DNA from: Glutamicibacter creatinolyticus
GTDB taxonomy: Bacteria; Actinomycetota; Actinomycetes; Actinomycetales; Micrococcaceae
Direction: 5' to 3'
DNA length: 64,000 nucleotides
Assembly (NCBI RefSeq): GCF_006094275.1
Contig: NZ_CP034412.1
Span: forward strand, 1,364,001-1,428,000
Shown here: in pieces, positions 45,146-61,829 of the stretch
Position numbering within the stretch: position 1 is the stretch's first letter
Layout: each line of letters begins with the position of its first letter
Translations under genes and position numbers: made by a program
The notes under the pieces: generated by a model
The model's input: only the letters and a program-made list of their open reading frames with translations
Database searches by the model: none
What the model was told of the DNA's origin: nothing

Positions 45146-46048
45146 ATGAATTCTCAGCGCCGGATAACTAAAGCGGTAATACCAGCGGCCGGATTAGGAA
45201 CGCGTTTCCTGCCGGCAACTAAGGCCATGCCAAAGGAAATGCTCCCTGTGGTAGATCGCCCTGCTATCCAATATGTGGTGGCTGAAGCAGTGAACGCTGG
45301 ATTGAATGATGTCTTGATGATTACCGGACGTAGCAAACGTGCTCTCGAGGATCACTTTGACCGTGTTCCGGCTCTGGAGCAGACGCTGGAAGACAAGGGA
45401 GACATAGCTAAGCTTCGCAGCGTTCAAGAAGCTACGGCACTGGGAGACATCCACTACGTGCGCCAAACCGATCCGAAGGGTCTTGGGCACGCAGTGCTAT
45501 GCGCGAAGAAGCATGTTGGCAACGAACCATTCGCCGTTCTTCTGGGCGACGATCTCATCGATGAGCGCGATGAGGTTCTTAACACGATGATCGAGGTTCA
45601 AGAGCGTACTGGTGGCTCGGTTATCGCACTGATGGAAGTCGATCCAAAAAACATCAGCGCATACGGGTGCGCAGATGTCACCGAGATTGACGGGGAGAGC
45701 TACGTTAAGGTCAACGGACTGGTTGAAAAACCAGCAGTGGAGGAAGCGCCTAGCAATCTGGCTGTCATCGGGCGTTACCTCCTCCACCCGCGCGTTTTCG
45801 AGGTTCTGGAGCACACGCAACCAGGGCGTGGCAACGAGATTCAGCTGACTGATGCGCTCCAGGAACTTGCCGCCGCCGATGGTGATGGTGCAGGCGTATA
45901 CGCGGTGGTGTTCCGCGGTCGCCGTTACGACACGGGTGATAAGTTGAGCTACCTGCAGGCGATCATCTCTTTGGCTGTAGAGCACGACGAACTGGGCGAC
46001 GGACTGAAGCCGTGGCTTCGGGAGTTCGCTGCGAATATGGAGAACTAG
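45146..46048 (+). CDS. galU: UTP-glucose-1-phosphate uridylyltransferase
   Basis: 300 residues from ATG. It makes UDP-glucose from UTP and glucose 1-phosphate. The N-terminal nucleotide-binding motif is VIPAAGLGTRFLPATKAMPK then EMLPVVDRPAIQYV; FAVLLGDDLIDERDEVLN holds the metal-binding Asp; GLVEKPAVEEAPSNLAVIGR and FRGRRYDTGDKLSYLQA are typical of bacterial GalU. Placed at the entry of the surface-polymer island, it can supply UDP-glucose to the transferases there and to galE at 20 kb. It has its own terminator. Confidence 0.95.
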   Translation: MNSQRRITKAVIPAAGLGTRFLPATKAMPKEMLPVVDRPAIQYVVAEAVNAGLNDVLMITGRSKRALEDHFDRVPALEQTLEDKGDIAKLRSVQEATALGDIHYVRQTDPKGLGHAVLCAKKHVGNEPFAVLLGDDLIDERDEVLNTMIEVQERTGGSVIALMEVDPKNISAYGCADVTEIDGESYVKVNGLVEKPAVEEAPSNLAVIGRYLLHPRVFEVLEHTQPGRGNEIQLTDALQELAAADGDGAGVYAVVFRGRRYDTGDKLSYLQAIISLAVEHDELGDGLKPWLREFAANMEN

Positions 46049-46059
46049 GATCTTGGAGG

Positions 46060-46099
46060 GGCTACTCAGCATAATCACATTTATGTTGAGTAGCCTTTT
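46060..46099 (+). terminator. Terminator after galU
   Basis: A 15-bp stem (46060-46074 with 46081-46095, one G-T pair) is followed by TTTTC. Confidence 0.85.
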
Positions 46100-46173
46100 C
46101 ATTTGCGGCAACGAGAGTGAAAAGTATAGTAGCTTCGCTGTGAGCAAGAAACAGCCGACAAGCGGAGTATTGG

Positions 46174-47244
46174 ATGTCCCATAAGAGCAAGGGTGGATCT
46201 ACGGAAGTTGCTTCACGTAGCGTCCGATTCGGCATCGCACGTCGTCGTCGGCGTAGAGTGCGGGCGATTGTTCTTTCTGTTGTGAGCCTGGTGCTGGTGG
46301 CGGCGCTCGGTGCAGGCTACTATCTGTTCAACCTCAGCCATAAGTTCAATTCGCAGAAAAGCACAGTTTCGATTGATTTCACGCCTGAGGAGGAAGAAGC
46401 TCGTCCAGTTAAGGATCCTGAGGACGGCTCAATGAATATTTTGCTGCTGGGCGTGGATCACAGTGACGAAGCTGACGCTGGCGCGAATTCTCTTACCGAA
46501 GCGGCCGGTCAACGCAGCGATTCAATGATGCTGGTGCATATCCCGGAAACCCGGGATGAAGTCTTCGTCATGTCATTGGTCCGCGATACTTGGATTGAGA
46601 TTCCGGGCCACGGAATGAATAAGCTCAACTCTGCGATATCCCTGGGCGGTGTCCCACTACTCATGCAGACGCTGGAAGGAACTTTTGATACGAAGATCGA
46701 TCACGTCGCGATGATCGATTTTGAGGGATTCAGGGAGCTGAGCACTGCGCTAGGCGGAGTCACCGTTGATAACGACATCGCATTTACCGCTAACGATACT
46801 GATTACTACTACCCTGAAGGTTCAATTACCCTAGAAGGGGATCGGGCTCTTAGGTTTGTGCGCGAACGCAAATCCTTCACCGATGGCGATTACCAACGTG
46901 TACGGAACCAAAGGAAGTTTATTTCGGCAGCGGTCGATCAGATGTTGGCACCCGGAGTACTGACCAATCCGGCCAAGGTGTATGACCTGGTAGACAAGGT
47001 TTCTCCGTATCTGACCTTTGATGAATCTTTTGACGCTGCGACAATGGTCGGCCTAGGCATGCAACTTAAGAATGTGGGTGCAGAAGATCTTAAAATGTTC
47101 ACAATGCCCACCGCTGGAAGCTCAATCAGCCCTGATGGACAGTCAATAGAGTTAGCGAACGAGAAAGCAATCTCTCAGATCCGCGAGGCGCTACGAACCG
47201 ATAAAATGAGCGAGTACCTGGCTAAGAACCCGCCCCCCGATTAA
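46174..47244 (+). CDS. LCP (LytR-CpsA-Psr) family wall-polymer ligase, island copy
   Basis: 356 residues from ATG. A basic N-terminus (RRRRRVRA) and one transmembrane helix (about 32-52) anchor an extracellular LCP domain: NILLLGVDHSDEA, QRSDSMMLVHIPETRDEVF, SLVRDTWIEIPGHGMNKLN, TALGGVTVDNDIAF and FVRERKSFTDGDYQRVRNQR. It is clearly paralogous to the LCP at 37669 and shares its layout. Its place between galU and the ABC exporter suggests it attaches this island's polymer to peptidoglycan, which is inference. Confidence 0.92.
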   Translation: MSHKSKGGSTEVASRSVRFGIARRRRRRVRAIVLSVVSLVLVAALGAGYYLFNLSHKFNSQKSTVSIDFTPEEEEARPVKDPEDGSMNILLLGVDHSDEADAGANSLTEAAGQRSDSMMLVHIPETRDEVFVMSLVRDTWIEIPGHGMNKLNSAISLGGVPLLMQTLEGTFDTKIDHVAMIDFEGFRELSTALGGVTVDNDIAFTANDTDYYYPEGSITLEGDRALRFVRERKSFTDGDYQRVRNQRKFISAAVDQMLAPGVLTNPAKVYDLVDKVSPYLTFDESFDAATMVGLGMQLKNVGAEDLKMFTMPTAGSSISPDGQSIELANEKAISQIREALRTDKMSEYLAKNPPPD

Positions 47245-47251
47245 TATCGAA

Positions 47252-47277
47252 CGTTAGTGCGAGATGAGTCACTAACG
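47252..47277 (+). other. Hairpin without T run after the LCP gene
   Basis: CGTTAGTG (47252-47259) pairs with CACTAACG (47270-47277). It lies in the 142-bp gap before the ABC permease and may be a weak terminator or an mRNA-stabilising stem. Confidence 0.4.
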
Positions 47278-47386
47278 GAACTCAGAGGTGATTGCGCGTC
47301 TAGATGGCGCTATCAACTAGACTTTGAGCTGTCCTAATTGACTTTACGATTAGATCTTTACGCGTTGCAAGAGGAATCGAACGAAC

Positions 47387-48235
47387 ATGACAGTTGCCGA
47401 GGTCGCCGAACAGCATGGTTTGCACCGGGTAGGCGCTCGCCCATCGCTGGGCAACTATCTCAAGCAGACTTGGGAGCGGCGTACCTTTATTTATGAACTT
47501 GCGAAGGCACGCGTCCAATCCCAAAATGAGCGCAATCGTTTGGGTATGGTATGGGTTGTCCTCAAGCCAACCTTGAACGCTCTCATGTATGGATTCATTT
47601 TCGGAGTTCTGCAGGGAGGTAGTCGCCCTGCTGATTTCCCCATTTACGTAGTAATTGGCGTCTTCCTTTTCGAGTTCTTCAGCTCGTCTATGACCGGAGG
47701 AGCAAAGTCAATCACCGGCAACACTGCGCTCGTGCAGTCGCTTTCATTTCCTCGAATGTCGTTGCCCGTCGCGCAGGTTACTCAGAACTTCCTAACTCTG
47801 ATGCCGATGCTCGTAGTAATGTTCCTGTATGCGGTGATTTTGGGATCGATGCCTAAGTGGAGCTGGTTCGCAATCGTCCCGATAGTTCTGCTCTTTACTG
47901 TCTTTAACATGGGTATTGCTTTCATCTGCGCGCGAATCACTGTTCACATTAGGGACTTCACCAATATCCTTCCACTGATCGGTCGCGTTCTCTTCTACAC
48001 TTCTGGCGTTCTCTTCAGTGTTGATCGACTCCTGGGATCGTGGCCGTGGATGATCTCTGTCTTTGAGTATCACCCGATCTATCAGACGCTAACACTCGCC
48101 CGCTCGCTAATCATGGACAGCGTTCCGTATGAGCCCCGAGCATGGTTTGTTATCGCAGCGTGGGCGATCGGAACTCTAATATTTGGTCTCATCTTCTTCT
48201 GGAAAGCCGAGGAGCGTTACGGCCGTGTCAATTAG
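47387..48235 (+). CDS. Polysaccharide ABC exporter, permease (TagG/Wzm type)
   Basis: 282 residues from ATG. It is an ABC-2 type membrane protein with about six hydrophobic segments; the ABC-2 family pattern includes RVQSQNERNRLGMVWVVLKP near residue 46 and FIFGVLQGG, and the second half has FFSSSMTGGAKSITGNTALV. With the ATPase encoded next to it, it should export an undecaprenyl-linked polysaccharide or teichoic-acid-like chain across the cytoplasmic membrane. It overlaps the ATPase gene by 11 bp. Confidence 0.9.
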   Translation: MTVAEVAEQHGLHRVGARPSLGNYLKQTWERRTFIYELAKARVQSQNERNRLGMVWVVLKPTLNALMYGFIFGVLQGGSRPADFPIYVVIGVFLFEFFSSSMTGGAKSITGNTALVQSLSFPRMSLPVAQVTQNFLTLMPMLVVMFLYAVILGSMPKWSWFAIVPIVLLFTVFNMGIAFICARITVHIRDFTNILPLIGRVLFYTSGVLFSVDRLLGSWPWMISVFEYHPIYQTLTLARSLIMDSVPYEPRAWFVIAAWAIGTLIFGLIFFWKAEERYGRVN

Positions 48236-49103
48236 TTTCGATGACCTAATCAATCCGCAACTGCACCCCGAATATCAACCCGAACCTGTTTTCTCAGATG
48301 CCACGACGTTTGAGGCCAGTGAAGGGCAAGAAAAGGAGGAGCAGTCCTCCCTGGAGATCGATCCCAACCGAAACCCTGTCGTAATTGTAGACAACCTACA
48401 CGTCAAGTATCAGGTCTACTCCAGCGGAAAGTCTGTGGGAAATGCCGGAGCACGTCGTCTTCTACAGACAAAGATGAGGGGACTGCGCACCGTTCACGCT
48501 CTAAAGGGGATATCGTTCGTCGCGTACGAGAACGAATCGATCGGCATTATCGGGACCAACGGGTCTGGAAAGTCCACACTTCTGCGAGCTATTACAGGAT
48601 TGACTCCGCCATCTTCAGGAGCGGTGTATGCGACGTCGCGGCCGAATCTGCTAGGTGTAGGTGCTGCGTTGATTCCCGACCTTTCAGGCGATAAGAACAT
48701 CACCCTCGGTGGGCTGGCACTTGGTTATGACAGACCAAAAGTGGAAGAAATGCGTGAGGACATCACTAAGTTTGCAGAGCTAGAAGAATTCATCGATCTG
48801 CCAATGCGAACTTATTCGTCTGGCATGAGTGCGCGTCTGAAATTCGCCATTGCAGCTTCCAAACAGCACGATATTTTGATTGTTGATGAAGCATTAGCTG
48901 TAGGAGATGCCAAATTCCGCAAACGCAGTGAGGCCAAAATCCGGGAAATGCGCGAGAACGCAGGAACGATCTTTCTGGTTTCCCACTCGATGGGATCGAT
49001 CCGGCAAACTTGCAATCGTGTGATCTGGATTGAAAAGGGCGTGCAGAAAATGGACGGTGACCCGAATACCGTCATCAAGGCGTACGAGAAATTCAAGAAG
49101 TAG
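48225..49103 (+). CDS. Polysaccharide ABC exporter, ATPase (TagH/Wzt type)
   Basis: 292 residues from GTG 48225, which has GAGGAG 11 bases upstream; a TTG at 48183 is also in frame. ABC motifs: SIGIIGTNGSGKSTLLRAIT (Walker A), YSSGMSARLKFAIA (signature) and ILIVDEALAVGD (Walker B). About 50 residues rich in Glu, Pro and Ser come before the ATPase domain, which is unusual. It lacks the C-terminal carbohydrate-binding domain of Wzt, so it is of the TagH kind that exports without recognising a chain-end cap. It powers the permease encoded upstream. Confidence 0.92.
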   Translation: MSISFDDLINPQLHPEYQPEPVFSDATTFEASEGQEKEEQSSLEIDPNRNPVVIVDNLHVKYQVYSSGKSVGNAGARRLLQTKMRGLRTVHALKGISFVAYENESIGIIGTNGSGKSTLLRAITGLTPPSSGAVYATSRPNLLGVGAALIPDLSGDKNITLGGLALGYDRPKVEEMREDITKFAELEEFIDLPMRTYSSGMSARLKFAIAASKQHDILIVDEALAVGDAKFRKRSEAKIREMRENAGTIFLVSHSMGSIRQTCNRVIWIEKGVQKMDGDPNTVIKAYEKFKK

Positions 49104-49106
49104 CGT

Positions 49107-50153
49107 ATGACTAATTTTCCAGGTGTTTCATACGTCATGCCTGTGCTCAATGAGGCCAATTATTTAGTAGATGCCGTTGGTTCAATTCTTGACCAGAGCT
49201 ACCCAGGGGCAAAGGAACTGATTATTGCTCTAGGGCCAAGTGTGGACGGAACCAACGAGGTCGCTCAGCGCCTTGCGGAGACAGACGAGCGTATCGTTCT
49301 CGTGCAAAATCCGGAGGGGCGAACGCCAATTGCCTTGAATCTGGCGATACGAGCCTCGAGCTATCCGGTCATCATTCGCGTCGATGCCCACAGTGAGTTG
49401 CCGGAGCATTACACGCGTCGAGGGGTCGAGACACTATTCCGGGTCCAGGCACACGATGTAGGAGGGTTGATGGACGCTCGCGGCAGAACCCCGCTACAAC
49501 GCGCCATTGCGGCTGCCTATAATTCACGCTTTGGTTTTGGTGGGGCCGCGTACCATTCCGGTGCGCCCGAAGGTCCAGCCGAGTCTGCGTATCTCGGAAT
49601 CTTTCGGCGCGAAGTTTTCGACGAAGTGGGTTTTTACGATGAGTCCATGCTACGAGCTCAAGATTGGGAGCTCTGCCACCGAATCAGGGAAGCGGGCTAC
49701 AGAGTTTGGTTCGATCCGGAGCTGAAAGTAGGTTATTATCCGCGTGACACTTTCCGTGCTCTGGTTTCCCAGTCATTTGCCTCCGGTACCTGGAGAGCGG
49801 AAATTGCTCGCCGATACCGCGATGGAAAATCATTGCGTCATGTAATACCGCCGCTGATGGTAGTCGGTGTAACCGCTGGCGTCGTCGCAAACTTAATGCG
49901 GCCCTTGGTCAAAAGATCGGGGCCGTCCAGCGCGAGGCGTTTTTTGAACTTGGTTTCTGCTGCTCCCTATGTTTACGGAGGACTAGCTGTATGTGAGGGA
50001 ATGCGAGGCCAGGCCCCAAGAACGAGTGAAAGGCTTCTCACAGGGGCGGTATTCCCGGCCATTCACTTTCCCTGGGCTCTTGGGTATGTGCGCGGACTGC
50101 TTCTCGGTGCGGGAAAGACTGTTGATAGAGGCAGAGTGAACCATGGACGTTGA
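49107..50153 (+). CDS. Glycosyltransferase family 2, ExoA-like, with C-terminal membrane segment
   Basis: 348 residues from ATG, 3 bp after the ATPase gene. The GT-A core has GVSYVMPVLNEANYLVDAVG, IRVDAHSELPEHYTRRGVE with the D-x-H form of the metal site, and MLRAQDWELCHRIREAGYRV (E/D-x-x-x-R-x-x-x-G). This is the pattern of ExoA, a succinoglycan glucosyltransferase. A hydrophobic stretch at about 245-270 could bind the membrane. The last 11 bp overlap the phosphotransferase gene. It probably extends or primes the island's polymer; the sugar is not known. Confidence 0.86.
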   Translation: MTNFPGVSYVMPVLNEANYLVDAVGSILDQSYPGAKELIIALGPSVDGTNEVAQRLAETDERIVLVQNPEGRTPIALNLAIRASSYPVIIRVDAHSELPEHYTRRGVETLFRVQAHDVGGLMDARGRTPLQRAIAAAYNSRFGFGGAAYHSGAPEGPAESAYLGIFRREVFDEVGFYDESMLRAQDWELCHRIREAGYRVWFDPELKVGYYPRDTFRALVSQSFASGTWRAEIARRYRDGKSLRHVIPPLMVVGVTAGVVANLMRPLVKRSGPSSARRFLNLVSAAPYVYGGLAVCEGMRGQAPRTSERLLTGAVFPAIHFPWALGYVRGLLLGAGKTVDRGRVNHGR

Positions 50154-50961
50154 GCGACCAAAGAATCCAACGCTCGAGCAACTGCGCGAGATTTGTCAGC
50201 CGCCTGAGGTCCGCTCGCGGCGGAATGCTGAACATTGGACCGCCGAACTGTACCTTCGGCATGTCTCCATCTATCTAACCGCTGTTTTAGTGCGCACTCG
50301 AATTACGGCCAACGGAGTCACCGGCCTGATGATTCTCGCTGGGTGGAGCATGTCATTGGCGCTCCTGATCCCCGGCATATGGGGGCCGGTTTTGGCACTC
50401 TTGCTGTCGCAGTTGCAGCTTTACTTTGATTGCTCGGATGGTGAGGTAGCCCGTTGGAGATCGAGTCAGTCTCCCAAAGGCATCTTTATTGACATGGTCG
50501 GCCATCACACTACCGAAGCCTTCATTCCCCTTGCGTTAGGGTATCGAGCATTCCGGGAACTTTCTGCTAATGGAACGACGATCTCCCAGGCGTGGCCCAC
50601 TCTATTCATGGCAGCGTGTTTGGCCGTACTACTCGTATTGAACCGCTCTCAATCGTTGATGGTTCATGCCGCACGTGGAATGGCTGGGTTAGGCAAGCTG
50701 CCTGATACCGCTGAAGCGCGAGCGGTACCGACAACCAGTCTCATCGGTCGGCTGCGTGCCATGGCCAAATTTCTCCCTTTTCATAAGCTATTGCACGCTG
50801 TGGAGCTTAGCTTGATAATACTCTTTAGCGCCGTGGTGTCAGCCTTTCTCGGCCAACCGGGGTTGGGGGAGAAATGGGTGATTTGGATCCTTCTGCCAGC
50901 CACATTCCTAGTGAACATTGGGCACTTCATCTCTTCAATGGCGTCTTCACGCCTTAAGTAG
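50143..50961 (+). CDS. CDP-alcohol phosphotransferase-family membrane protein with altered motif
   Basis: 272 residues with several membrane segments. The CDP-alcohol phosphatidyltransferase signature D-x2-D-G-x2-A-R-x8-G-x3-D-x3-D is visible at residues 96-121 (DCSDGEVARWRSS ... KGIFIDMVGH), but the last Asp, the proposed general base, is His121. The spacing is otherwise exact. The enzyme should transfer a phospho-alcohol from a CDP-linked donor at the membrane. A CDP-glycerol-type donor could come from the TagD-like enzyme encoded 1 kb downstream. This suggests a polymer-linkage or phospholipid-headgroup role rather than housekeeping lipid synthesis, which is inference. Confidence 0.78.
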   Translation: MDVERPKNPTLEQLREICQPPEVRSRRNAEHWTAELYLRHVSIYLTAVLVRTRITANGVTGLMILAGWSMSLALLIPGIWGPVLALLLSQLQLYFDCSDGEVARWRSSQSPKGIFIDMVGHHTTEAFIPLALGYRAFRELSANGTTISQAWPTLFMAACLAVLLVLNRSQSLMVHAARGMAGLGKLPDTAEARAVPTTSLIGRLRAMAKFLPFHKLLHAVELSLIILFSAVVSAFLGQPGLGEKWVIWILLPATFLVNIGHFISSMASSRLK

Positions 50962-50996
50962 AAAAGCCTAAAACAACTAAGAGTCGTGAGGGGAAC

Positions 50997-51884
50997 GTGA
51001 TGCATGCAGTGCCACCGTCGGTGGGGGTAGTTATTCTGACTATGGGGAGGAGACCAGCCGAATTACAGCGTGCACTCAACTCTCTTCTTAGCCAGAAAGG
51101 CGTAAATATCGATGCGGTGGTGGTGGGAAATGGATGGGACCCTGAAAGAATCCCCGCCTCGATCAGGACTCTTTTCCTTCCAGAGAATCTGGGAATTCCG
51201 GCCGGACGTAACGCCGGTGTACCGATGGTCTCAGGCGAATTCCTATGCTTCCTTGATGATGATTCCTGGTTCCTTGAAGATAATTTTCTAACCTCAGCCA
51301 TTGAACGATTCCGCCTCCATCCGGGCATGGGGCTACTACAGCCTAGAATCACCGACCCAGAACGTGACGATGATCCTACACGTTGGATTCCGCGCTTGAA
51401 CAAGCGATCTGCTGAAGTACCGAGCAAGGTATTCCACGTCGGAGAAACGTGCCTGGTTATGCCCCGCGAGGTTTTCGAAGAAACCGGAGGATGGGCGGGT
51501 GGCTTCTGGTACGCCCACGAGGGCATCGAATTAGCATGGCGTGTTTGGGACACGGGTAGATACGCGTGGTATGCGGGCGATATGAGAATCGGGCATCCCG
51601 TGGTCGATCCTCGGAGACACGACGAATTTTACCGCCTGAACGCGCGCAACCGCGTCTGGCTGGCGCGCCGCAACCTGCCCCTGCCGTTCCGCTGGCTGTA
51701 CACCGTGGACTGGGCAATGGTGGAATGTCTACGGCTCCGTCGGAACAAGTCGGCTGTGCGCCAGTACCTCTCCGGTTGGAAGGCTGGTTGGAAGGGCAGC
51801 CCCTGGTACCAGCAGCCGCGCCGGAAAATCCGCTGGGCCACGATCCTGCGCATGAGCCTGGCCGGTCGCCCACCGCTCATCTGA
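50997..51884 (+). CDS. Glycosyltransferase family 2
   Basis: 295 residues; start GTG 50997 or the next codon ATG, with GAGGGGAA upstream. GT-A motifs: VGVVILTMGRRPAELQRALN, LGIPAGRNAGVPMVSGEFLC, the metal site CFLDDDSWF near residue 87, and YAHEGIELAWRVWDTGRYAW in the acceptor region. It looks like a rhamnosyl- or galactosyl-type GT2, but the donor is not readable. It sits between the phosphotransferase and TagD-like genes. Its 3' third is GC-richer than its 5' part. Confidence 0.85.
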   Translation: MMHAVPPSVGVVILTMGRRPAELQRALNSLLSQKGVNIDAVVVGNGWDPERIPASIRTLFLPENLGIPAGRNAGVPMVSGEFLCFLDDDSWFLEDNFLTSAIERFRLHPGMGLLQPRITDPERDDDPTRWIPRLNKRSAEVPSKVFHVGETCLVMPREVFEETGGWAGGFWYAHEGIELAWRVWDTGRYAWYAGDMRIGHPVVDPRRHDEFYRLNARNRVWLARRNLPLPFRWLYTVDWAMVECLRLRRNKSAVRQYLSGWKAGWKGSPWYQQPRRKIRWATILRMSLAGRPPLI

Positions 51885-51952
51885 TTTAGCGTTTGCGAGC
51901 GCACCGACTAGATTGGGAGAATCAGCCGCGATGCCTGAAAGGCGAACCTAAA

Positions 51953-52411
51953 ATGAAAACCGTATTAACTTACGGGACCTTCGACCTGTTCCACATCGGC
52001 CACTTAAACATGCTCAAACGGCTGAAGGAAAAAGGCGAACGGCTCATTGTGGGAGTCTCCACCGACGAGTTCAACGCCCTAAAAGGCAAACGACCAATCG
52101 TGCCCTTCGAGCAGCGTATCGAGATCGTACGCTCCATCCGTTACGTCGACGAGGCCATCCCTGAAATGACCTGGGGTCAAAAGCGCAGCGATATCGCCAA
52201 ATACGACGTGAACGTCTTCGGTATCGGCGAGGACTGGAAGGGCCGCTTCGACGACCTTGAGGATCTAGTGGAGGTCTTCTACCTGCCACGCACTTCGGGG
52301 ATATCCACCACTGAGATGAAGCGCGTGCTCAGCGAGTTTGATGAACGCCATGTGGAGTCGCTAAAGAACACCCTTGATACGCTGAGCCAGATCGTCAAGG
52401 AGCTGAGCTAG
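51953..52411 (+). CDS. tagD: Glycerol-3-phosphate cytidylyltransferase (TagD-like)
   Basis: 152 residues from the ATG at 51953; the frame is open 20 codons further up, but the family starts at MKTVLTYGTFD. The nucleotidyltransferase motif TYGTFDLFHIGHLNMLKRLK and the distal RTSGISTTEMK match TagD, which makes CDP-glycerol from CTP and glycerol 3-phosphate. GpsA (34.9 kb) can supply the substrate. Other cytidylyltransferases of this family use ribitol 5-phosphate relatives or ethanolamine phosphate, but RTxGISTT fits TagD best. It provides the strongest evidence that the island makes a phosphate-linked, teichoic-acid-like polymer. Confidence 0.88.
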   Translation: MKTVLTYGTFDLFHIGHLNMLKRLKEKGERLIVGVSTDEFNALKGKRPIVPFEQRIEIVRSIRYVDEAIPEMTWGQKRSDIAKYDVNVFGIGEDWKGRFDDLEDLVEVFYLPRTSGISTTEMKRVLSEFDERHVESLKNTLDTLSQIVKELS

Positions 52412-52488: not shown

Positions 52489-53850
52489 ATGCTAGCAGGA
52501 TGGCGGGGCAAGATCGGGCGCAACCTTCCCGAACCGCTGGTACGCCGCATGCTTGAGGCAACGCTGAAGGCCCCGTCCGGTGACGTGCCTTACACCATCG
52601 CGCAGTTGCGCAAGGATGCCGAGCGTGCCTCTACGCGCATCGCCGCCGACCTGGGCATCGCATTCGACCGAGCGGGACCGGGCTTGCCGTTCACCATTCA
52701 CTCGGGTCACTGGGAACGCCTGCGCGACGCCCTGCGGTCCACCGGGCTGGTGGTTCAGAAGCTCCACCACGCCCACTCGAACGCCGCGGCGGCGGCCTGG
52801 AGTGTCAGCGTCGCTACCGCGCCGACCGGGGGCGTTGCCGATTTGCGCGGATGCGGGGCGGTTTGGCAAGCGTTCCCTGGAGGCCTGGAGGCGCTGGTGG
52901 ACGCGCAGGATTTCACCGGGACGGTGGACGCGGTCTACACCTGGGTGGATGCCAACGACCCCGTCTGGAACAGTGCTTACCAGGCCCAATTACGCGCCGC
53001 GGGCCGTCCCGCCGGAGACAGCGCGGTAAACCGGGCACGATTTGCCTCCCGTGACGAACTGCGCTACTCGCTGCGTTCCCTTGAGATGAACCTGCCTTGG
53101 ATCGATAAGATCTACCTAGTCACCGCTGGTCAACGCCCCGCTTGGCTGGCCGAGGAGCACCCCCGGCTAACCGTCGTGGATCATCGAGAAATCTTCAGCA
53201 ATCCTGACCGATGCCTGCCTACGTTTAACTCGCACGCCATCGAATCGCAGCTACCGAATATCCCGGGACTCAGTGAGCACTTCCTGTACGTAAATGATGA
53301 CGTGTTCTTCGGGCGGTATCTGCACCCCAACACGTTCTTCGGTCCTGCAGGGCAGGCTAAGTACTGCCTCACTAAGGGACACTTCGCACAGGCCGAGAAC
53401 CCCGGACTGCCGATCAATCAGGCTGCTGCCAATAACCGCGAAGTCATCCTGGAGCGCTTCAGCCGCACCGCCTCCCGCAAGTTCCAGCATGTTGCGCACC
53501 CGCAGCGCTTAACGGTCCACCGTCGCATCCACGAAGACCTCGGACCGAGAATCGCGGAGATCGCCACGCATCGTTTCCGGTCCGCGACCGACCTATCTAT
53601 TCCCTCCTCGCTCGCACACCAGTACGCCGCCCGCCTGGGCATGGGTTACCCCACCTCGGTTCAATACCAGTATGTGGACCTCGGGTCGGATCGCTTTCAT
53701 CTGGACATGCTACGTCTTGCACGCAACATCGATCTGGATATGTTCTGTATAAACGAAGTTCTATCAACCGTCGATGAAAATCAGCGTTCACAGGTCGTGG
53801 ATGAGTTTATGAGTACGCGGTTCCCGGTGTCTTCGTCGTTCGAGAAGTAG
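52489..53850 (+). CDS. Stealth-family sugar-phosphate transferase
   Basis: 453 residues from ATG. The four conserved Stealth blocks are present: CR1 VDAVYTWVDANDPVWN near residue 146, CR2 RFASRDELRYSLRSLEMNLP near 184 followed by PWIDKIYLVTAGQRPAWL, CR3 around FLYVNDDVFFG and HRRIHEDLGPRIAE, and CR4 near SLAHQYAARLG. Stealth enzymes (such as SacB, XcbA, GNPTAB) transfer a hexose-1-phosphate to a growing chain, giving phosphodiester links. The first ~140 residues are an N-terminal domain seen only in part in relatives. The 3' flank is AT-rich and holds a decayed IS3 element. Confidence 0.9.
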   Translation: MLAGWRGKIGRNLPEPLVRRMLEATLKAPSGDVPYTIAQLRKDAERASTRIAADLGIAFDRAGPGLPFTIHSGHWERLRDALRSTGLVVQKLHHAHSNAAAAAWSVSVATAPTGGVADLRGCGAVWQAFPGGLEALVDAQDFTGTVDAVYTWVDANDPVWNSAYQAQLRAAGRPAGDSAVNRARFASRDELRYSLRSLEMNLPWIDKIYLVTAGQRPAWLAEEHPRLTVVDHREIFSNPDRCLPTFNSHAIESQLPNIPGLSEHFLYVNDDVFFGRYLHPNTFFGPAGQAKYCLTKGHFAQAENPGLPINQAAANNREVILERFSRTASRKFQHVAHPQRLTVHRRIHEDLGPRIAEIATHRFRSATDLSIPSSLAHQYAARLGMGYPTSVQYQYVDLGSDRFHLDMLRLARNIDLDMFCINEVLSTVDENQRSQVVDEFMSTRFPVSSSFEK

Positions 53851-53975: not shown

Positions 53976-54401
53976 TTACCGGTGCCATAGCTGGTTCGCC
54001 CTGTCTGCGACGAACTGATGGCGTTCACGACCGTCCTCGTCGATGACGACGCAGTGGTCGTCGTGAACGGCGGGGCCGGGCATCGTGCCGTTCTTGCCGC
54101 GCTTCTTCCCGAACACGCTCCACCAGCCATTCGACGAGGCAATCCGCCACGTGCTTTGGTCTGACATTACTTCGCTATACTCAACGCGGGCCTCGTCAGC
54201 CAGGAGCCGGTACCCGAACTCGAGGTCCTCGCGATGCGCGTCGAACAACACGTTTGCACGGTACGCCTCGTCGAGTTCGCGCCGCGTGATGGGATTCTTC
54301 TTCCAGCGGTAATACGGCTGGCGGGCGAGCTTGAGTACCCGGCACGACACCGCGACGGGGATTGCGTCTTCGGCGAGCTCGGTCACGAGCGGGTACATCA
54401 T
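53976..54401 (-). pseudogene. IS3 transposase orfB remnant (N-terminal part)
   Basis: About 141 codons of the HTH_21 part of an IS3 orfB: MYPLVTELAEDAIPVAVSCR, RQPYYRWKK, FDAHREDLEFGYRLLADEAR, WWSVFGKKRGKNG and HDDHCVVIDEDGRERHQF. The rve (DDE) catalytic domain that should follow is missing, so the transposase cannot act. Confidence 0.8.
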
Positions 54402-54687
54402 TTTCCCCGCAGATGAGCCTGTGACAGATACGCCCTCGCGCGGCGCAGGACTTCTACCTCTTGCTCGAGGAGCCGGTTGGGTTTGCGCAGCTCGCGCAGT
54501 TCCGCGGACTCTGACGTCTGGCCAGGCTGCTCGCCCGACTCGATGCGGGCCTCTTACAGCCATTTGCCGAGGGTCCGACATGGACGCCAAAGTCTTTCGC
54601 GACTTGCGCAATCGAGACGCCGGCCTCGCGGTTCATCGCGACGCGCACGACGTCATCGCCGAACTCCTTGCGGAAGGGCTTGGGCAT
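54400..54687 (-). pseudogene. IS3 transposase orfA remnant
   Basis: The helix-turn-helix start (FRKEFGDDVVRVAMNREAGV, then AQVAKDFGVHVG) is intact, but a frameshift follows. The expected continuation is in another frame: TLGKWL, then a TAA in place of a sense codon, then EARIESGEQPGQTSESAELR and the leucine-zipper part RLLEQEVEVLRRARAYLSQA, then HLRGK and a stop. It is not functional. Confidence 0.8.
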
Positions 54688-54969: not shown

Positions 54970-55755
54970 TTGGGAAGCCAACACACAATAGCCAGCTCAT
55001 TGCAGGTCACAGACTATGCATGGTCTTCGGCCGGAAAACTCAGTTTTCTGCTCGCAGGGCGTCCTGATTCTAGTTCGGACAAGATACAGTCCGTCAAACT
55101 TGTTAGTCAAGATAAAAAATTGATGGCGCCCTCCGTCAAGATCTGTGGATCCGTAGGTGGCAGCCTCCATTGTGAGGTGCATGTTCCTACTGGTGCTAAC
55201 TACAGGATCGAAGCTCTGGACAGTAGTGGCAAATTATATCGTGTGGGGCTACCTATAGGACTCGCTAACAAAACGGGCAAATTTTCGGGTTTTATCTCCC
55301 GATATATACTCCGTTCTCCTGCGTATGCGATGACGCTCCAAAGGGAAATGAAACGCCTACCGAAGAAGATATCTGTAATAACGCGAAGTGATTCGATAGA
55401 GATATTAGACGAGGAAAATTTGGGACAGCAACTGCTCTTTACGCGTCGCGGTTCAAAAGATACGGTGCGTGGAAGCCTTTTGCAGAACGGAGCAAGTGTT
55501 TTTTCGATTAGTGAGTTTTCCGAAACGCTTTTGTGTCTACCCGATGGCGAAACGCTATGGGATTGCAGACTCGGTTCCAACAGCGGTCGTAGGCTCCAGT
55601 ACTGGGGAAGCGCTTCGGAAGAGCCGAGGAGACTTATGCAATATCCCTGGTACTGGATGGGAGACGAAGGCGCGAGCGCAAGAGCCAAGGTCTACTGGAC
55701 AAAAGATGGCCACTTGGCCTTGAAAATTGTGAAGAAAGGGCTCAAAGCAGCATGA
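54970..55755 (+). CDS. Hypothetical protein, possibly 5'-truncated, before the GT4-Stealth gene
   Basis: 261 residues if it starts at TTG 54970, 12 bases after a strong AGGAGG (54952-54957). The frame stays open into the IS3 remnant and other starts (ATG 54886) are possible, so the original N-terminus may have been lost. The protein is rich in beta-prone segments (KLSFLLAGRPDSSSDKIQSV, SLHCEVHVPTGANYRIEALD), as in the beta-sandwich modules next to glycerophosphotransferases and glycosyltransferases. I see no catalytic motif, signal peptide or membrane helix. It overlaps the next gene by 4 bp (ATGA), so it is probably cotranslated with it and belongs to polymer synthesis. Confidence 0.5.
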   Translation: MGSQHTIASSLQVTDYAWSSAGKLSFLLAGRPDSSSDKIQSVKLVSQDKKLMAPSVKICGSVGGSLHCEVHVPTGANYRIEALDSSGKLYRVGLPIGLANKTGKFSGFISRYILRSPAYAMTLQREMKRLPKKISVITRSDSIEILDEENLGQQLLFTRRGSKDTVRGSLLQNGASVFSISEFSETLLCLPDGETLWDCRLGSNSGRRLQYWGSASEEPRRLMQYPWYWMGDEGASARAKVYWTKDGHLALKIVKKGLKAA

Positions 55756-58505
55756 AGATCGCATTCATACTAACCACAGGCGACACAAGCGCGGGAACGG
55801 AACATGCGATCCAGTCGCAAGCAGTAGGTTTGCGTGATCGCGGTTACGAAATATCGATTTACAGTATTTACCGGACTAACGGGCGCCTCAGCAGAATTAT
55901 GCCCGATGACATCAAGGTTACATATTGGTTGGATTCTGAAGGTAAAGATCTGACGGGCATGTTGTCGGATGAACAAGCAGAACGCTTAAGCAAGGCACCT
56001 TCAACACTAATATCGCATGCTTGGGACAACCAGTACAGTAAATTAACCGACATTGTTTGTCGAAAGAAAATTGGCGGCCTCCGCGAGGATGCAGTCGTTA
56101 CTACCACGCCAGCGTTAGCAATGCTTGCATCATATTTCCTCCCAGAAGGGACGATGTTGGTTGCCGAAGAGCATCGAGCAAGCATGAGACGAGGTGTCGG
56201 CATTACGCCTCTTGCAAACGTCGTTCACGACGTAGACGCGATAATCTCGCTCAACAACGAAAATGCAGAATGGATCCGGGACCGTTTCCCAGAGTACGGG
56301 TTCGTCAGCGCTGTCATTCCGAACTCTATTCCTGATGTTCTACGCCCGCGAGCAGCAAGCAACTCGACGATTGTAATGGCTGCTGGACGTTTCGCTCCTG
56401 GCAAACAGTTTGATCAGCTACTTGAGGCCTTTTCTCTATTTAAGGCGGGACATCCCGACTGGACTCTGCGCCTATTCGGTGAGGGACCGGGTGAGACGAA
56501 ACTCAGAGAGTTAATTGGGAAACTGAATCTCCACGATTCCGTCGAGATCATCACTGGTGTAACCGATTTAACCGCTGAGTGGGCCGAAGCGGGAATTCAC
56601 GCTATGACGTCCAAAAGCGAAGGCCAACCGTTGGTAATTCTCGAAGCGTCTGCAGCAGGTGTTCCTACCGTTGCTTACGATTGTCCGATTGGGCCGAGGA
56701 ACATTCTTACTCATGGTATAGACGGTTTGCTCGTACCACTCAATGACACCGAAGCTTTCGCCCAGACACTGGCTTCGATTGCAGGCGATACGGAACGTCG
56801 TGCGAAAATGTCGTCTGCCGCAATTCAGACGGCGAAGAAGTACAGCCCTAAGAGTATTCTTGATGAATGGGAAAAGCTGTACTCAGAATTGGCCCAGCGA
56901 AGGACACCGAGTGAACCTCGCGTTGAAGCTAACCTTAAGATTTTACGAGGATCGCGTGAAAATGAAACAGTTACGCTCCCTGATGATCTCGATTTTAACG
57001 GAACTGAAAATGCAAAAAAGGGTTTCAACGTCCGTATCGTGGAGCCGCGTAGCTTATCTGCTCAACTCGCTCAGGACGTGAACCAGAAATTCGTTAAAGG
57101 TTTGCTAATGCGGGCTGAAATCTGTGCTGTTGAAATCCCGTCCTACAGCTACTACAGGCAGACTTTAGCGATTCGGGAAGAAGACAGTCTGCGACTTCTT
57201 CAGGCATTGTCACGGTCACCCCAGGAGGGTGTATGTGTGAGGGCCATGAAGGGAAATTCCAGATTGTCTACGAAAGACTGGCACCCTGGTGTCGATGAAC
57301 TTTCCGAGTACGACCGTGATTTGGCAAATGTTTTCCGGGTATTCATTCCGATTTCGGACGAACTTCGTCGCTTTACCTTCGGTTCAGTTTTCGCTGTAGA
57401 CATAGAAGTATGGTCTATTGATCAGGATGCGTACGTGGCACCCCGGTCCAATCCAGGTGTCGATCGGTTGTTGAACGATGACTTCCTTCGGGGCAGTGTC
57501 CTGCCGGAAGCGCCGCTTTGGGACGAAATTAACTTCCCGATTGATGCAGTGTATACGTGGGTTGATGATAGTGATCAGAACTGGCGTCGGACTAAGGACC
57601 ATTACGACGCTCTCGAAAACGGTTCACACCCTTTAGCAACTGGGTCTATGCGATTCAAGAACCGTGATGAGTTACGTTATTCAATACGGAGCGTACGCAC
57701 ATTTATGCCCTGGATACGTAATATATACGTAGTTACTGCAGACCAGTATCCGACGTGGCTATCGGAAGAATCCGACATACAAGTTATTACACACAGCGAC
57801 ATTTTTCCTGACAAGTCGGTCCTACCTGTCTTTAACTCGCATGCCATAGAAGCTTGCTTGCACCGGGTGCCAGGATTGGCGGAGCACTTCTTATATTTCA
57901 ACGACGATACCCTCCTTATGCGCATGCAAGATCCGCGTACCTATTTCCACGGCAACGGTGCGGCCAAATTTTTCATGTCCTCGGTAAAAATTGATACGAA
58001 TAATGCTGAGAATGAACCTCACATGTGGGCGGCGCGCAATAATAGAAAAATCCTATTTAGGGACTTCGGCAAAGTAATTACTCGTGGCATGCTACACACG
58101 CCATATCCCCACCGGAGATCGGTGCTATCAGAGATAGAGTCTGAATATCCTGAGGTTTTCAAAACGGTCAGAGCCTCTAGATTCCGCAGTCCTACCGATA
58201 TATCCTTGCTGTCCTCGTTTGCTCAGCATTATGGATATTTCGTAAATGAATACATACCTGGGAGCATACGTTATGCGTTCTGCTCGATGGCAGATGAAGG
58301 GATTCAAGCTAAGCTGTCCATGTTGCAACAAAGTGAACGGTTTGATGTTGTTACGTTTGGCGAGGGTGAAAACCCTGTCTATACAGGGGAGCAAATTGAC
58401 GGGATGATGGATCAGTTCTTCCGTAGTCGTTTCCCATATCCGGTCCAAGATGAGATTGGGTCGACTTCATTGACTGTAGAAGACTCGTCGGATTCGACGG
58501 AGTGA
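55752..58505 (+). CDS. GT4 glycosyltransferase fused to a Stealth sugar-phosphate transferase
   Basis: 917 residues. Residues 1 to about 385 are a GT-B family 4 enzyme: MKIAFILTTGDTSAGTEHAI, VVTTTPALAMLASYFLPEGT, IVMAAGRFAPGKQFDQLLEA, and SEGQPLVILEASAAGVPTVA (E-x7-E). A linker of about 200 residues follows. From about 595 the Stealth module starts: CR1 IDAVYTWVDDSDQNWRR, CR2 MRFKNRDELRYSIRSV, then MPWIRNIYVVTADQYPTWL, NSHAIEACLHRVPGLAEHFL, YFNDDTLLMRM and, near the end, HTPYPHRRSVL and SSFAQHYGYFVN. The chain may add a sugar and then a sugar phosphate to build a repeat unit. It overlaps the following Stealth gene by 4 bp. Confidence 0.88.
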   Translation: MKIAFILTTGDTSAGTEHAIQSQAVGLRDRGYEISIYSIYRTNGRLSRIMPDDIKVTYWLDSEGKDLTGMLSDEQAERLSKAPSTLISHAWDNQYSKLTDIVCRKKIGGLREDAVVTTTPALAMLASYFLPEGTMLVAEEHRASMRRGVGITPLANVVHDVDAIISLNNENAEWIRDRFPEYGFVSAVIPNSIPDVLRPRAASNSTIVMAAGRFAPGKQFDQLLEAFSLFKAGHPDWTLRLFGEGPGETKLRELIGKLNLHDSVEIITGVTDLTAEWAEAGIHAMTSKSEGQPLVILEASAAGVPTVAYDCPIGPRNILTHGIDGLLVPLNDTEAFAQTLASIAGDTERRAKMSSAAIQTAKKYSPKSILDEWEKLYSELAQRRTPSEPRVEANLKILRGSRENETVTLPDDLDFNGTENAKKGFNVRIVEPRSLSAQLAQDVNQKFVKGLLMRAEICAVEIPSYSYYRQTLAIREEDSLRLLQALSRSPQEGVCVRAMKGNSRLSTKDWHPGVDELSEYDRDLANVFRVFIPISDELRRFTFGSVFAVDIEVWSIDQDAYVAPRSNPGVDRLLNDDFLRGSVLPEAPLWDEINFPIDAVYTWVDDSDQNWRRTKDHYDALENGSHPLATGSMRFKNRDELRYSIRSVRTFMPWIRNIYVVTADQYPTWLSEESDIQVITHSDIFPDKSVLPVFNSHAIEACLHRVPGLAEHFLYFNDDTLLMRMQDPRTYFHGNGAAKFFMSSVKIDTNNAENEPHMWAARNNRKILFRDFGKVITRGMLHTPYPHRRSVLSEIESEYPEVFKTVRASRFRSPTDISLLSSFAQHYGYFVNEYIPGSIRYAFCSMADEGIQAKLSMLQQSERFDVVTFGEGENPVYTGEQIDGMMDQFFRSRFPYPVQDEIGSTSLTVEDSSDSTE

Positions 58506-60154
58506 GAAAAATGCGAAATTTTCAAGCGGTGCAAAGAAGTGCAAAGCGTGTGTTGACATCGGCCAGTAGTAAAATCGGCGCGCGACTCGCTCCTGGTGTT
58601 GCTTCAGTTAAGACGCTGTTAACGCGAGCTGTTTCAAGTGATTTTCGTGAACACTCTACCCTTCTTAAGCTCCCTGTGGGCTTCCGATTAGGACTAACCG
58701 CTTCTTCCTTGTCGCTTCCTGATGTATCTAAAAGTAACTTCGAACAGCTAGAGATGGCACTGAAATCGTGTGCTATCGACTATTGGGTGTTGAATGTTGA
58801 TCCTTCAGGCTCCATGCAGCTGAATATAATGACCGATGATTTCGATCGATTTATTCGTAATATAGTGAACGCTGTCGATTTCAAGCACTGGTATTATCAG
58901 ATGCTCAATGATAATGGCAAAACGTCAAGTTCCACGGGTTTATTGCATGCCGTGGGTTCTGATACCAGTAAGATAAACGGTGTTCGACTATTTCAGTATG
59001 TTGCTCCTTCAGTAGAATCATTCTTCTTCGCTGGGGCGGCGCAAGGTGTCGATGTAGTACGTTGGCGGGTCAGCGATGCGAACGGTGGAATCACGAGTGA
59101 GATATGGAACCCGAAATGCGTAGAACTTCCTAACCCAAAAGCAAGTCATAACGAGTTCTTGGATGTCCTGGCTCGAGCGAATGGAGCCTCCGGTCATCAT
59201 TTTTCCTGCCCAGTTGACGCAGTAATCACTTGGGTAGATGGTAACGACAAGAATTGGTTGAAGCGGAAAAATGCTGCTCTTGGCCTTGAGACGGAGCGGT
59301 TGGTCCAGGACGCGACGGATGCGTCTAGATTTGAGCCACTCGATGAGTTGAAATATTGCTTAAGGGCAATCGAACAGTATGCACCCTGGATTCGTAAGAT
59401 TTTTCTTGTCACGGACCGTCAGACGCCAGAGTGGCTGCAAGTCAAGGAAAACAACAGGCTCAAAGTTATTGATCATTCGGAAATTTGGAAGGATCCGGCA
59501 GATCTTCCGGTATTCAATTCCCATGCGATTGAAGCAAACTTACACCGTATAGATGGCCTCGCTGAACACTTCTTGTATCTGAATGATGACATGATCCTGA
59601 CGGCACCCGTCTCTCCGGATACCTTTTTTCATCCGAGCGGGGTGACTAAGGTGTTTTATTCGAAAGCTTTGGTAGATTTCAACGATTTATCGGATCAAGA
59701 CAATGTGTCGACGGTGGCAGCCAAGAATGCAAGAACAATTTTGCATTCTAGGGGGTTTCCTATTATGAATCGAAAGTTCTTTCATACGCCGTATGCGTTT
59801 AATCGAAGTATTTTGGAGAAGATTGAGCAGGAATTTGCCGATATTTCTGAACGCGTTAGCGCAACAAAATTTCGGTCTCTAGACGATGTAGCGTTTGCCG
59901 GTTCGTTCTACTTTAATTACGCGTTGGCGGTGGGTGCCGCCGTGCCCGGAAAGATTCGTTATGATTACATTGATCCCGCTGATTCGGGAGCATTGGATCG
60001 ACTGGACCGGATCATCAGAAAAAGACACACGCAGTGCATCGTCGTAAATGATGGTTCGCAGGCCGTTTCCCCCGAAGAGCGCGAGATTATAAAGAAGGTC
60101 ATCCCTGCTCGCTTGAGTCAGCTTCTTCCCGTGAAATCTTCATTTGAGCTTTAA
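58502..60154 (+). CDS. Stealth-family sugar-phosphate transferase, third copy
   Basis: 550 residues, GTG start overlapping the previous stop (GTGA). CR1 is VDAVITWVDGNDKNWLKRKN near residue 239, CR2 SRFEPLDELKYCLRAIEQYA followed by PWIRKIFLVTDRQTPEWL, then NSHAIEANLHRIDGLAEHFL, YLNDDMIL, KFFHTPYAFNRSIL and FYFNYALAVG. The N-terminal ~235 residues are not recognisable. It differs strongly from the other two Stealth proteins, so the three probably act on different sugars. It is AT-rich. An IS5-type element sits 3 bp after its stop codon, flanked by CTAG. Confidence 0.87.
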   Translation: MRKMRNFQAVQRSAKRVLTSASSKIGARLAPGVASVKTLLTRAVSSDFREHSTLLKLPVGFRLGLTASSLSLPDVSKSNFEQLEMALKSCAIDYWVLNVDPSGSMQLNIMTDDFDRFIRNIVNAVDFKHWYYQMLNDNGKTSSSTGLLHAVGSDTSKINGVRLFQYVAPSVESFFFAGAAQGVDVVRWRVSDANGGITSEIWNPKCVELPNPKASHNEFLDVLARANGASGHHFSCPVDAVITWVDGNDKNWLKRKNAALGLETERLVQDATDASRFEPLDELKYCLRAIEQYAPWIRKIFLVTDRQTPEWLQVKENNRLKVIDHSEIWKDPADLPVFNSHAIEANLHRIDGLAEHFLYLNDDMILTAPVSPDTFFHPSGVTKVFYSKALVDFNDLSDQDNVSTVAAKNARTILHSRGFPIMNRKFFHTPYAFNRSILEKIEQEFADISERVSATKFRSLDDVAFAGSFYFNYALAVGAAVPGKIRYDYIDPADSGALDRLDRIIRKRHTQCIVVNDGSQAVSPEEREIIKKVIPARLSQLLPVKSSFEL

Positions 60155-60172
60155 CGCCTAGGGCGTGTCTCT

Positions 60173-60751
60173 TTATTTGGTTAATACCGCGCTCCACACC
60201 ACCACAGCTTGTAAAACCACTGCAGCCCTGTAGGTCAGTGCGAGCTTGTCATACCGGGTGGCCAGTGACCTCCACTGCTTCAACGTGTTGAAGCTGCATT
60301 CCACGACATTGCGACGTTTATACGCCTCCTTGTCGTAGGTCACCGGCCGCCCACCAGCTGAACCCCGACGCAACCGGTTCGCTTTTTGGTCTTCCCTCTC
60401 TGGGATCACGCACTGAATGCCCCGAGCTCGCAAGTAGTGGCGGATCGCCTTGGACGAATAGGCTTTGTCCGCCATAGCCCGCACGGGACGTTTCCGGGCC
60501 GCACCAGGTCCTGGCTTCTGAACCTTGAGCGAGTCCAGCAGGTTCTGAAACATCGGCGCGTCCCCGCTCTGCCCGGGGCCGAGCAGCAAGACCAGTGGGC
60601 GGCGGTTGCCATCAACGAGCGCATGGATCTTCGTGCTCAACCCGCCCCTGGAACGACCGATCGCATGGTCTTCGGGTTCAGTGAGCAGATTCTTGTAACT
60701 TGATAGATCCCCCTGTGTGGCGTGGGAGGTTGGTCGCATGCTGGTGGGCAC
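60173..60751 (-). CDS. IS5-type transposase, second frame
   Basis: Up to 192 codons, of which those after the overlap are meaningful. The DDE part is intact: IGRSRGGLSTKIHALVDGNR, MADKAYSSKAIRHYLRARG with the second Asp, and KRRNVVECSFNTLKQWR with the catalytic Glu, then RYDKLALTYRAAVVL. It is probably made only as a fusion with the first frame. Confidence 0.85.
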   Translation of the reverse strand: MPTSMRPTSHATQGDLSSYKNLLTEPEDHAIGRSRGGLSTKIHALVDGNRRPLVLLLGPGQSGDAPMFQNLLDSLKVQKPGPGAARKRPVRAMADKAYSSKAIRHYLRARGIQCVIPEREDQKANRLRRGSAGGRPVTYDKEAYKRRNVVECSFNTLKQWRSLATRYDKLALTYRAAVVLQAVVVWSAVLTK

Positions 60752-61067
60752 GATTGATCGTGGAATCCACCGACACCTCCCAATTGATCAGGCCTCGCGT
60801 ATCAGCCGTTGACAGCAGCGCGGCAAGGATCTTGTCCCAGGTGCCGTCATTACTGAAACGGCGGTGGCGTTTCCAGACTGATTTCCATGACCCGAAATGT
60901 TCTGGAAGGTCACGCCAGGGAATCCCTACCCGGTACCTGTAGATCATGGCTTCGGTCGTTCGCCGGTGGTCGTTGAAAGGCCGTCCGCGTTTACCCGTCG
61001 AGTCGGGCATGAACGGCGCGATCAAGTCCCATTGCGCGTCGGTTAGAAGATGATAACGAGAACTCAC
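60678..61067 (-). CDS. IS5-type transposase, first frame
   Basis: 129 residues. The N-terminal DUF4096-like part of an IS5 transposase: LTDAQWDLIAPFMPDSTGKR, GRPFNDHRRTTEAMIYRYRV, GIPWRDLPEHFGSWKSVWKR and the first catalytic Asp in VSVDSTINRAHQHA. It overlaps the second frame by 74 bp; ribosomal frameshifting probably joins the two. Confidence 0.85.
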   Translation of the reverse strand: MSSRYHLLTDAQWDLIAPFMPDSTGKRGRPFNDHRRTTEAMIYRYRVGIPWRDLPEHFGSWKSVWKRHRRFSNDGTWDKILAALLSTADTRGLINWEVSVDSTINRAHQHATNLPRHTGGSIKLQESAH

Positions 61068-61206
61068 TGTTCAAGCGTGGCAAAGTTACCTATCCACATT
61101 TAGGAGACACGCCCTAGTAGTCGAAGTTGACGTGCATCACTGAACTTGTCTAGCGCTAAAGATCGCGCTAGGGTTAAATGTCGGTCTATGTTCAATAGGA
61201 GTTATC

Positions 61207-61827: not shown

Positions 61828-61829
61828 TC

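Follow-up and report, generated by a model that had tools for sequence, protein, structure and literature searches.

A stretch of 64,000 nucleotides from Glutamicibacter creatinolyticus (RefSeq assembly GCF_006094275.1, contig NZ_CP034412.1, positions 1,364,001 to 1,428,000 of the forward strand; hereafter the window) carries a block of surface-polymer genes between coaD and yceD. This locus probably consists of a teichoic-acid-type assembly frame and a replaceable polymerase compartment for a phosphate-containing wall glycopolymer, and in this strain it appears to have been switched to sugar-1-phosphate chemistry. By frame we mean the eight genes from galU to tagD and by compartment the segment from tagD to yceD (Table 1). 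The evidence comes from the gene content of the interval, the conservation of the frame, the differences between relatives in the compartment, trees of some compartment genes that disagree with the core tree, and the absence from the window genome of any protein above the cut-off for PF04464, the family of TagB/TagF-type CDP-glycerol glycerophosphotransferases. The window genome (G000), a single contig of 3.31 Mb, was compared within a genus set of 18 genomes that includes it, with one genome per species, and within a family set of 245 genomes.

A conserved frame and a variable compartment

The genes coaD and yceD are on one contig in all 18 genus genomes, separated by 14.2 to 24.4 kb, and the eight frame genes lie between them in identical order in every genome. 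All eight were also found at the same site in the seven loci fetched (of 12) from the sister genus g23, and in the single loci of g30 and g18. In the three g11 loci, the site contains the LCP, TagG, TagH and tagD genes, and the CDP-alcohol phosphotransferase gene is not there; the g31 locus with a large gap has other genes inside. Given the presence of the frame in 18/18 genus genomes and 7/7 sister-genus loci, the left half of the interval is therefore old, and an insertion unique to the window strain is excluded by its occurrence throughout the genus.

The rpoB tree of the genus set, in which 12 of the 15 inner branches are well supported, contains six sister pairs (G000/G004, G002/G012, G003/G016, G006/G015, G008/G009, and G013/G014), and the tree of the eight frame proteins recovers all of them. 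As a separate observation, rpoB of G003 is split into two open frames of 532 and 688 amino acids, perhaps through a sequencing error.

The sequence-only reading had taken this interval for a surface-polymer island that entered between coaD and yceD, at a hot spot where surface-polymer gene sets are exchanged between strains. This idea can draw on the distance between the two boundary genes, which is below 1 kb in 67 of 122 genomes, 1 to 10 kb in 19, and at least 10 kb in 36 (18/18 of the genus, 12/12 g23, 3/3 g11, and one each of g18, g30, and g31); this census covers the 18 genus genomes and those family genomes that have both genes on one contig among the matches listed, so that distant genera are under-represented. 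It is also in line with the transposase open reading frames (ORFs) in the compartments of G000, G001, G009, and G011, which are the four genomes scanned for insertion sequences (IS). It is contradicted by the presence of the eight frame genes at the same site in the entire genus and in other genera, by the six sister pairs retained in the frame tree, and by the lack of any integrase family match among the Pfam-scanned ORFs of the interval and of any tRNA gene in positions 24960-64000. A single repeat search revealed no convincing border repeats of the interval. Insertion of an island carrying the whole gene set is thus quite improbable. Judged by gene content across the genomes, this is a resident locus, variable in a single compartment, and what stands of the hot-spot proposal is the variability of the right half, the left half being old and resident.

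Comparison of the interval among relatives, which had been suggested as a check, did reveal different polymer genes at the same spot: in the right half, five of the six sister pairs differ in their compartment genes, the exception being G003/G016. One gene set with a matching phylogeny, the pattern named as a sign of ancestry, was largely found for the left half and not for the right. The compartment polymerases of the relatives are mostly of the CDP-glycerol type (PF04464), either on their own or in fusions with GT2, GT4, or TPR domains. The PF04464 classes c11, c13, and c14 (the last with TPR and GT4) occur in 12, 9, and 8 of the 18 genomes, respectively, and GT2-PF04464 fusions were observed in G001, G004, and G009. 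The class of Stealth-1, c12, is present in nine genomes, in four of which it precedes tagD, and the minus-strand class c6 in 15. On the rpoB tree, these distributions require a minimum of six changes for c13, five for c14, six for c12, four for c11, and two for the pair formed by a GT4-Stealth fusion gene and a second Stealth gene. In pairwise DNA comparisons, the left parts were collinear and the alignment broke near tagD in G002/G012, G006/G015, and G008/G009, and after c11 in G013/G014; in the differing sisters, it was collinear again from yceD or before it.

The core tree was contradicted in G000 by c12 and in G015 by c11 and c14; most of c13 and c14 gave no such discordance. For Stealth-1, the window genome groups with G001, and a grouping with its sister G004 was rejected (approximately unbiased [AU] test, p 0.00017). 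The c11 protein of G015 groups with those of G003/G016 (97/94), and G006+G015 was rejected (p 1.6e-8). The c14 protein of G015 is placed, contrary to rpoB, inside the group of G003, G016, and G013 (p 0.0008 against being outside), although the tree does not single out its partner there. From tagD through c11, G015 and its sister are 69-80% identical in DNA, down from about 93%. A further rejection, that of G008+G009 for c12 (AU p 0.0006), was not counted as exchange, since c12 comprises two subgroups at two positions and may include paralogues. The proposed exchange is accordingly supported in part: it appears established for some portions of the compartment only, and gene loss is possible for others.

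An account without any exchange would have an ancestor with many polymerase genes at this site, of which different lineages lost different members. In its favor, c13 and c14 give trees in large agreement with rpoB, both classes occur in tandem in G002, G010, and G012, and the two c12 subgroups at two positions fit old paralogues. However, the placement of Stealth-1 of G000 with G001 and the c11 and c14 trees of G015 speak against it, as does the absence of a PF04464 remnant in G000, and such an ancestor would have had to carry c11, two c12 genes, c13, c14, Stealth-2 and Stealth-3, c6, and several GT2-PF04464 fusions all together. We regard loss as the sole process as unlikely, and favor a resident frame with a compartment that was changed in part by exchange. 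Homologous recombination in shared neighboring genes would be the likely means of such exchange.

The gene yceD was considered as the right-hand cross-over arm of such a homologous cassette exchange, as its third codon positions are 0.76 identical among 17 genomes, compared with 0.40-0.52 in the neighboring genes measured, at ordinary codon adaptation. The same excess in synonymous codon identity was observed in two cassette-free genera with ten genomes each (0.85 versus 0.53 for coaD in one, 0.83 versus 0.62 in the other), so that this control rules out yceD as evidence, and a role as recombination arm is very improbable.

The conservation of yceD deserves mention in its own right. In four genera, whether or not they have the cassette, its synonymous codons are 0.76-0.85 identical along the entire gene, as compared to 0.41-0.62 for coaD. 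The 18 genes measured in the genus have ordinary codon adaptation, and no other frame stays open throughout in all sets. The adjoining rpmF behaves alike (0.84-0.88). These values suggest a nucleotide-level constraint on yceD.

Chain building and glycerol activation in the window genome

PF04464 was detected above cut-off in 17 of the 18 genus genomes, and the exception is the window genome, where no such protein was found anywhere. When 51 compartment proteins from relatives were used as queries, no PF04464 remnant came up in the window compartment, and the only matches were to the GT4 part of Stealth-2. Nevertheless tagD is retained, and its product aligns over residues 1-127 with a solved glycerol-3-phosphate cytidylyltransferase (2b7l). 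A strong tagD match (at least 149 bits) is present in 61 of the 245 family genomes, 59 of which also have PF04464. The other two are G000 and G068; the latter was rejected as a second case of this kind, since its tagD is an orphan with no frame gene within the 33 kb read around it. The window locus would act like a TagF-type teichoic acid locus, but is not filed as one in this strain.

All three Stealth proteins of the window contain CR1-CR3. Stealth-1 has CR1-CR4 above cut-off, and CR4 did not appear among the matches listed for Stealth-2 and Stealth-3 at E 0.001. Stealth-3 aligns with CpsY of Mycobacterium tuberculosis (8j2n) over 291 residues. A CR3 arginine is reported to be essential in CpsY (PMC10668966), and it is apparently kept in an FRS stretch in all three window proteins, as judged by eye and with inferred numbering. 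Relatives G008 and G014 also carry a GT4-Stealth gene, and the pair of GT4-Stealth and Stealth genes occurs at the coaD-yceD site in G000 and G008 only. Because the GT4-Stealth genes of these two genomes group together (100/100), the shared pair alone does not prove two arrivals, as far as the trees indicate.

Judged from the protein families, each biochemical step and the structure of the polymer would be as follows. The frame would supply precursors and build a lipid-linked start unit by means of its two GT2 enzymes and the CDP-alcohol phosphotransferase, with CDP-glycerol from TagD; the TagGH-like transporter would export the chain, and the LCP enzyme would attach it to peptidoglycan. The compartment would contain the chain-building phosphotransferases, CDP-glycerol polymerases in most relatives and Stealth proteins in the window genome. 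Since the putative builders in the window genome are all Stealth proteins, three in number with one fused to GT4, the predicted backbone is one of sugars with sugar-1-phosphate links. Between lineages, the compartment would alter by loss, gain, and replacement, and the frame would stay.

The CDP-alcohol phosphotransferase may link the two parts. A strong match (at least 325 bits) to this enzyme was found in 49 of the 245 family genomes, all of which have a strong tagD, and the two genes are within 5 kb of each other in 48/48 genomes with both on one contig. A strong tagD without the enzyme was observed in 12 of 61 genomes. The two genes are also together in g8, g12, and g5, in the 15 genomes having both on one contig, and in g8 and g5 (12 genomes) the pair is located outside the coaD-yceD gap, which there is at most 4.4 kb. 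The motif of the family is D-x2-D-G-x2-A-R-x8-G-x3-D-x3-D. Its last position is His in 26/26 proteins read, including that of the window, where AF2299 (4o6m) has Asp; in view of this substitution and the PF01066 score (Table 1), the enzyme is hence considered a divergent relative of the family. Because every strong match to it comes with a strong tagD and G000 is without PF04464 above cut-off, it is most likely the enzyme of the window genome that would use CDP-glycerol. More tentatively, and with some doubt, this membrane enzyme, in which His replaces the last catalytic Asp, might prime the chain by moving the first glycerol phosphate from the CDP-glycerol of TagD onto the lipid-linked start unit, in the place of TagB. 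If true, this priming role would explain why tagD is retained in a genome without a recognized CDP-glycerol polymerase, and CDP-glycerol or Stealth polymerases would extend one universal primer, which would make the compartment replaceable.

Several observations weigh against the proposed combination of a fixed frame and an exchanged compartment. Only 9 of 15 splits are common to the frame tree and the rpoB tree, which place G003/G016 differently, with strong support on both sides. The frame has also received insertions, namely a Stealth gene between GT2b and tagD in four genomes and a GDSL gene between galU and the LCP gene in five. As far as these trees and gene orders tell, the frame is not perfectly vertical. 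Compartment DNA of the nearest non-sisters is about 64-82% identical at best, with tiles touching tagD or yceD left out, so that no recent donor is seen and the exchange events would be old or their donors unsampled. The trees of the two large polymerases c13 and c14 mostly follow the species tree, and therefore loss from an ancestor having both genes is a fair reading that would explain much of their pattern about as well. The yceD signal, the single one in the flanks that had been read as a recombination arm, did not withstand its control. The scores of the TagH-like and TagD-like proteins are below the NCBIfam equivalog cut-offs (Table 1). Finally, an unlinked 375-amino-acid protein of G000 narrowly missed the PF04464 cut-off of 22.1 with 21.5 bits, and was not listed in a second search.

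Features of the interval and its surroundings

The genes that the sequence-only reading had named between coaD and yceD, that is galU, an LCP gene, an exporter, two GT2 genes, a CDP-alcohol phosphotransferase gene, tagD, and three Stealth genes, agree with the Pfam and NCBIfam assignments in Table 1. Of the two insertion sequences it had listed, one is an IS5-family element, and the second turned out to be a mere fragment of an IS3-family transposase. An Rfam scan of positions 44000-64000 yielded no family at E values up to 0.1.

Table 1. Genes and elements from coaD to yceD, in window positions; occurrences refer to the 18 genus genomes
Feature	Position	Strand	Evidence and occurrence
coaD, left boundary gene	44591..45061	+	Pfam CTP_transf_like 83 bits; one match per genome in 18/18
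galU (UTP-glucose-1-phosphate uridylyltransferase), frame	45146..46048	+	NCBIfam TIGR01099 347 bits, cut-off 327; 18/18
LCP family glycopolymer transferase, frame	46174..47244	+	Pfam PF03816 138 bits, cut-off 24.6; 18/18
ABC-2 permease, TagG-like, frame	47387..48235	+	Pfam PF01061 53 bits, above cut-off; 18/18
ABC ATPase, TagH-like, frame	48183..49103	+	Pfam PF00005 above cut-off; top NCBIfam match TagH 186 bits, below cut-off 320; 18/18
GT2 glycosyltransferase a, frame	49107..50153	+	Pfam PF00535; 18/18
CDP-alcohol phosphotransferase, frame	50143..50961	+	Pfam PF01066 26.9 bits, cut-off 22; final Asp of family motif is His
GT2 glycosyltransferase b, frame	50997..51884	+	Pfam PF00535; 18/18
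tagD-like glycerol-3-phosphate cytidylyltransferase, final frame gene	51953..52411	+	2b7l E 1.9e-43; TIGR01518 153.8 bits, below equivalog cut-off 165.4; 18/18
Stealth-1 (453 aa), first gene of variable compartment	52489..53850	+	Pfam CR1-CR4 above cut-off; cluster c12, 9/18
IS3-family transposase fragment, at junction	53976..54611	-	NCBIfam transpos_IS3 36.6 bits, cut-off 160, residues 73-209
Predicted all-beta protein, partner 5' of Stealth-2	54970..55755	+	Unannotated ORF; start codon inferred
Stealth-2, GT4-Stealth fusion (917 aa)	55752..58505	+	Pfam Glycos_transf_1 and Stealth CR1-CR3
Stealth-3 (550 aa)	58502..60154	+	Pfam Stealth CR1-CR3; M. tuberculosis CpsY 8j2n 184 bits
IS5-family element	60161..61114	-	Pfam DUF4096 and DDE_Tnp_1; IS5 148.7 bits, cut-off 110; TA at both sides
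yceD, right boundary gene	61306..61827	+	Pfam PF02620 107 bits; one match per genome in 18/18

The unannotated ORF upstream of Stealth-2 belongs to no Pfam, NCBIfam, or PHROG family. In G008, a relative with 32% identity immediately precedes the GT4-Stealth gene. A profile was built from the window and G008 proteins and, chosen by position, from those of G014 and the g23 genome G197, so that its matches in G008 and G014 are no evidence; it matched the gene 5' of GT4-Stealth in Arthrobacter sp. SF27 (E 1e-15) and gave four further weak matches among the 38 loci searched. The structure model is of low confidence (predicted local distance difference test [pLDDT] 63, predicted template modeling score [pTM] 0.47). 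Among the best 50 of 1143 Foldseek matches, TM-scores were 0.09-0.39 at a root mean square deviation above 11, with TarS of Staphylococcus aureus at rank 19. The predicted fold can be described as no more than a beta-sandwich.

The IS5-family element begins just after the Stealth-3 stop codon (60152-60154) and has one full copy in the genome. Three exact 70-base matches to its ends, without the remainder, are present at G000:C1 806282, 830771, and 2978460, and are perhaps remnants or non-autonomous copies.

The guanine-plus-cytosine (GC) content in the window is 0.534 for galU-tagD, 0.617 for Stealth-1, and 0.480 for Stealth-2 and Stealth-3, as compared to 0.574 for positions 1-44000. The right half, which had been described as AT-rich, is so in its last two genes and not in Stealth-1. 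In G008, values of 0.581 (flanks), 0.530 (left part), and 0.485 (Stealth pair) were obtained; background was measured for G000 and the G008 flanks alone. AT-richness as a mark of recent arrival was dropped, because GC content is alike on the two sides of the interval, left and right (0.50-0.58 in all), in the eight other relatives measured.

Elsewhere in the window, positions 24412-24959 contain a tRNA array made up of one tRNA-Gln gene and four tRNA-Glu(CTC) genes. A second surface-polymer cluster at 30-12748, with glycosyltransferases, a UDP-sugar dehydrogenase, a UDP-GlcNAc 2-epimerase, and a heparinase-like gene, precedes an NYN gene and a methionyl-tRNA synthetase gene; several relatives have PF04464-type or Stealth genes there.

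Comparison with known systems

No paper on a Glutamicibacter wall-polymer locus was found among the papers listed by the literature searches, and subscription journals outside this search may contain data on the wall chemistry of the genus. As far as these searches go, the new elements are a frame that is kept throughout a genus next to a single replaceable compartment, the change from one phosphotransferase family to another, and the state with tagD and no polymerase. Such an arrangement would mean that surface chemistry could change without replacement of the whole pathway: in this modular actinobacterial wall-polymer locus, start, export, and attachment would be fixed, and chain building would alternate between two unrelated phosphotransferase families. 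It offers a testable statement on how a bacterium may switch its main surface polymer, and points to the CDP-alcohol phosphotransferase beside TagD as a candidate for the common primer.

GT4-Stealth genes are present in Arthrobacter, Streptomyces, Micromonospora, and others, with relatives in the 80 named loci kept of 575 found. The locus of Arthrobacter sp. SF27 resembles that of the window in that its GT4-Stealth gene is followed by a second Stealth gene and preceded by tagD. In contrast, identity among the 80 loci kept was at most 40%, except for G. protophormiae (57%). With Stealth phosphotransferases such as CpsY (PMC10668966), the window proteins share CR1-CR3, and Stealth-1 also CR4; they differ in being encoded within a TagGH/LCP/tagD frame and, for Stealth-2, in carrying a GT4 domain. 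The TagF-like capsule polymerases of Gram-negative pathogens, which are fused to glycosyltransferases, often with TPR (PMC5974469), find their counterparts in clusters c14, c30, c32, c37, and c44 of the relatives; however, those polymerases make capsule and not wall polymers, and such fusions are absent from the window genome.

The nearest parallel is provided by the wall teichoic acid cassettes of Bacillus subtilis, for which the swapping of entire cassettes or regions by homologous recombination has been inferred from genome comparison (PMC8753576). There, as here, variable polymerase genes are located within a wall-polymer locus; the switch in B. subtilis is between glycerol and ribitol. 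However, the cassettes of B. subtilis vary from strain to strain within one subspecies and exchange one CDP-polyol chemistry for another, whereas the variation described here is among species, with the frame kept and with one state in which Stealth enzymes take the place of CDP-glycerol polymerases, and the frame includes a CDP-alcohol phosphotransferase.

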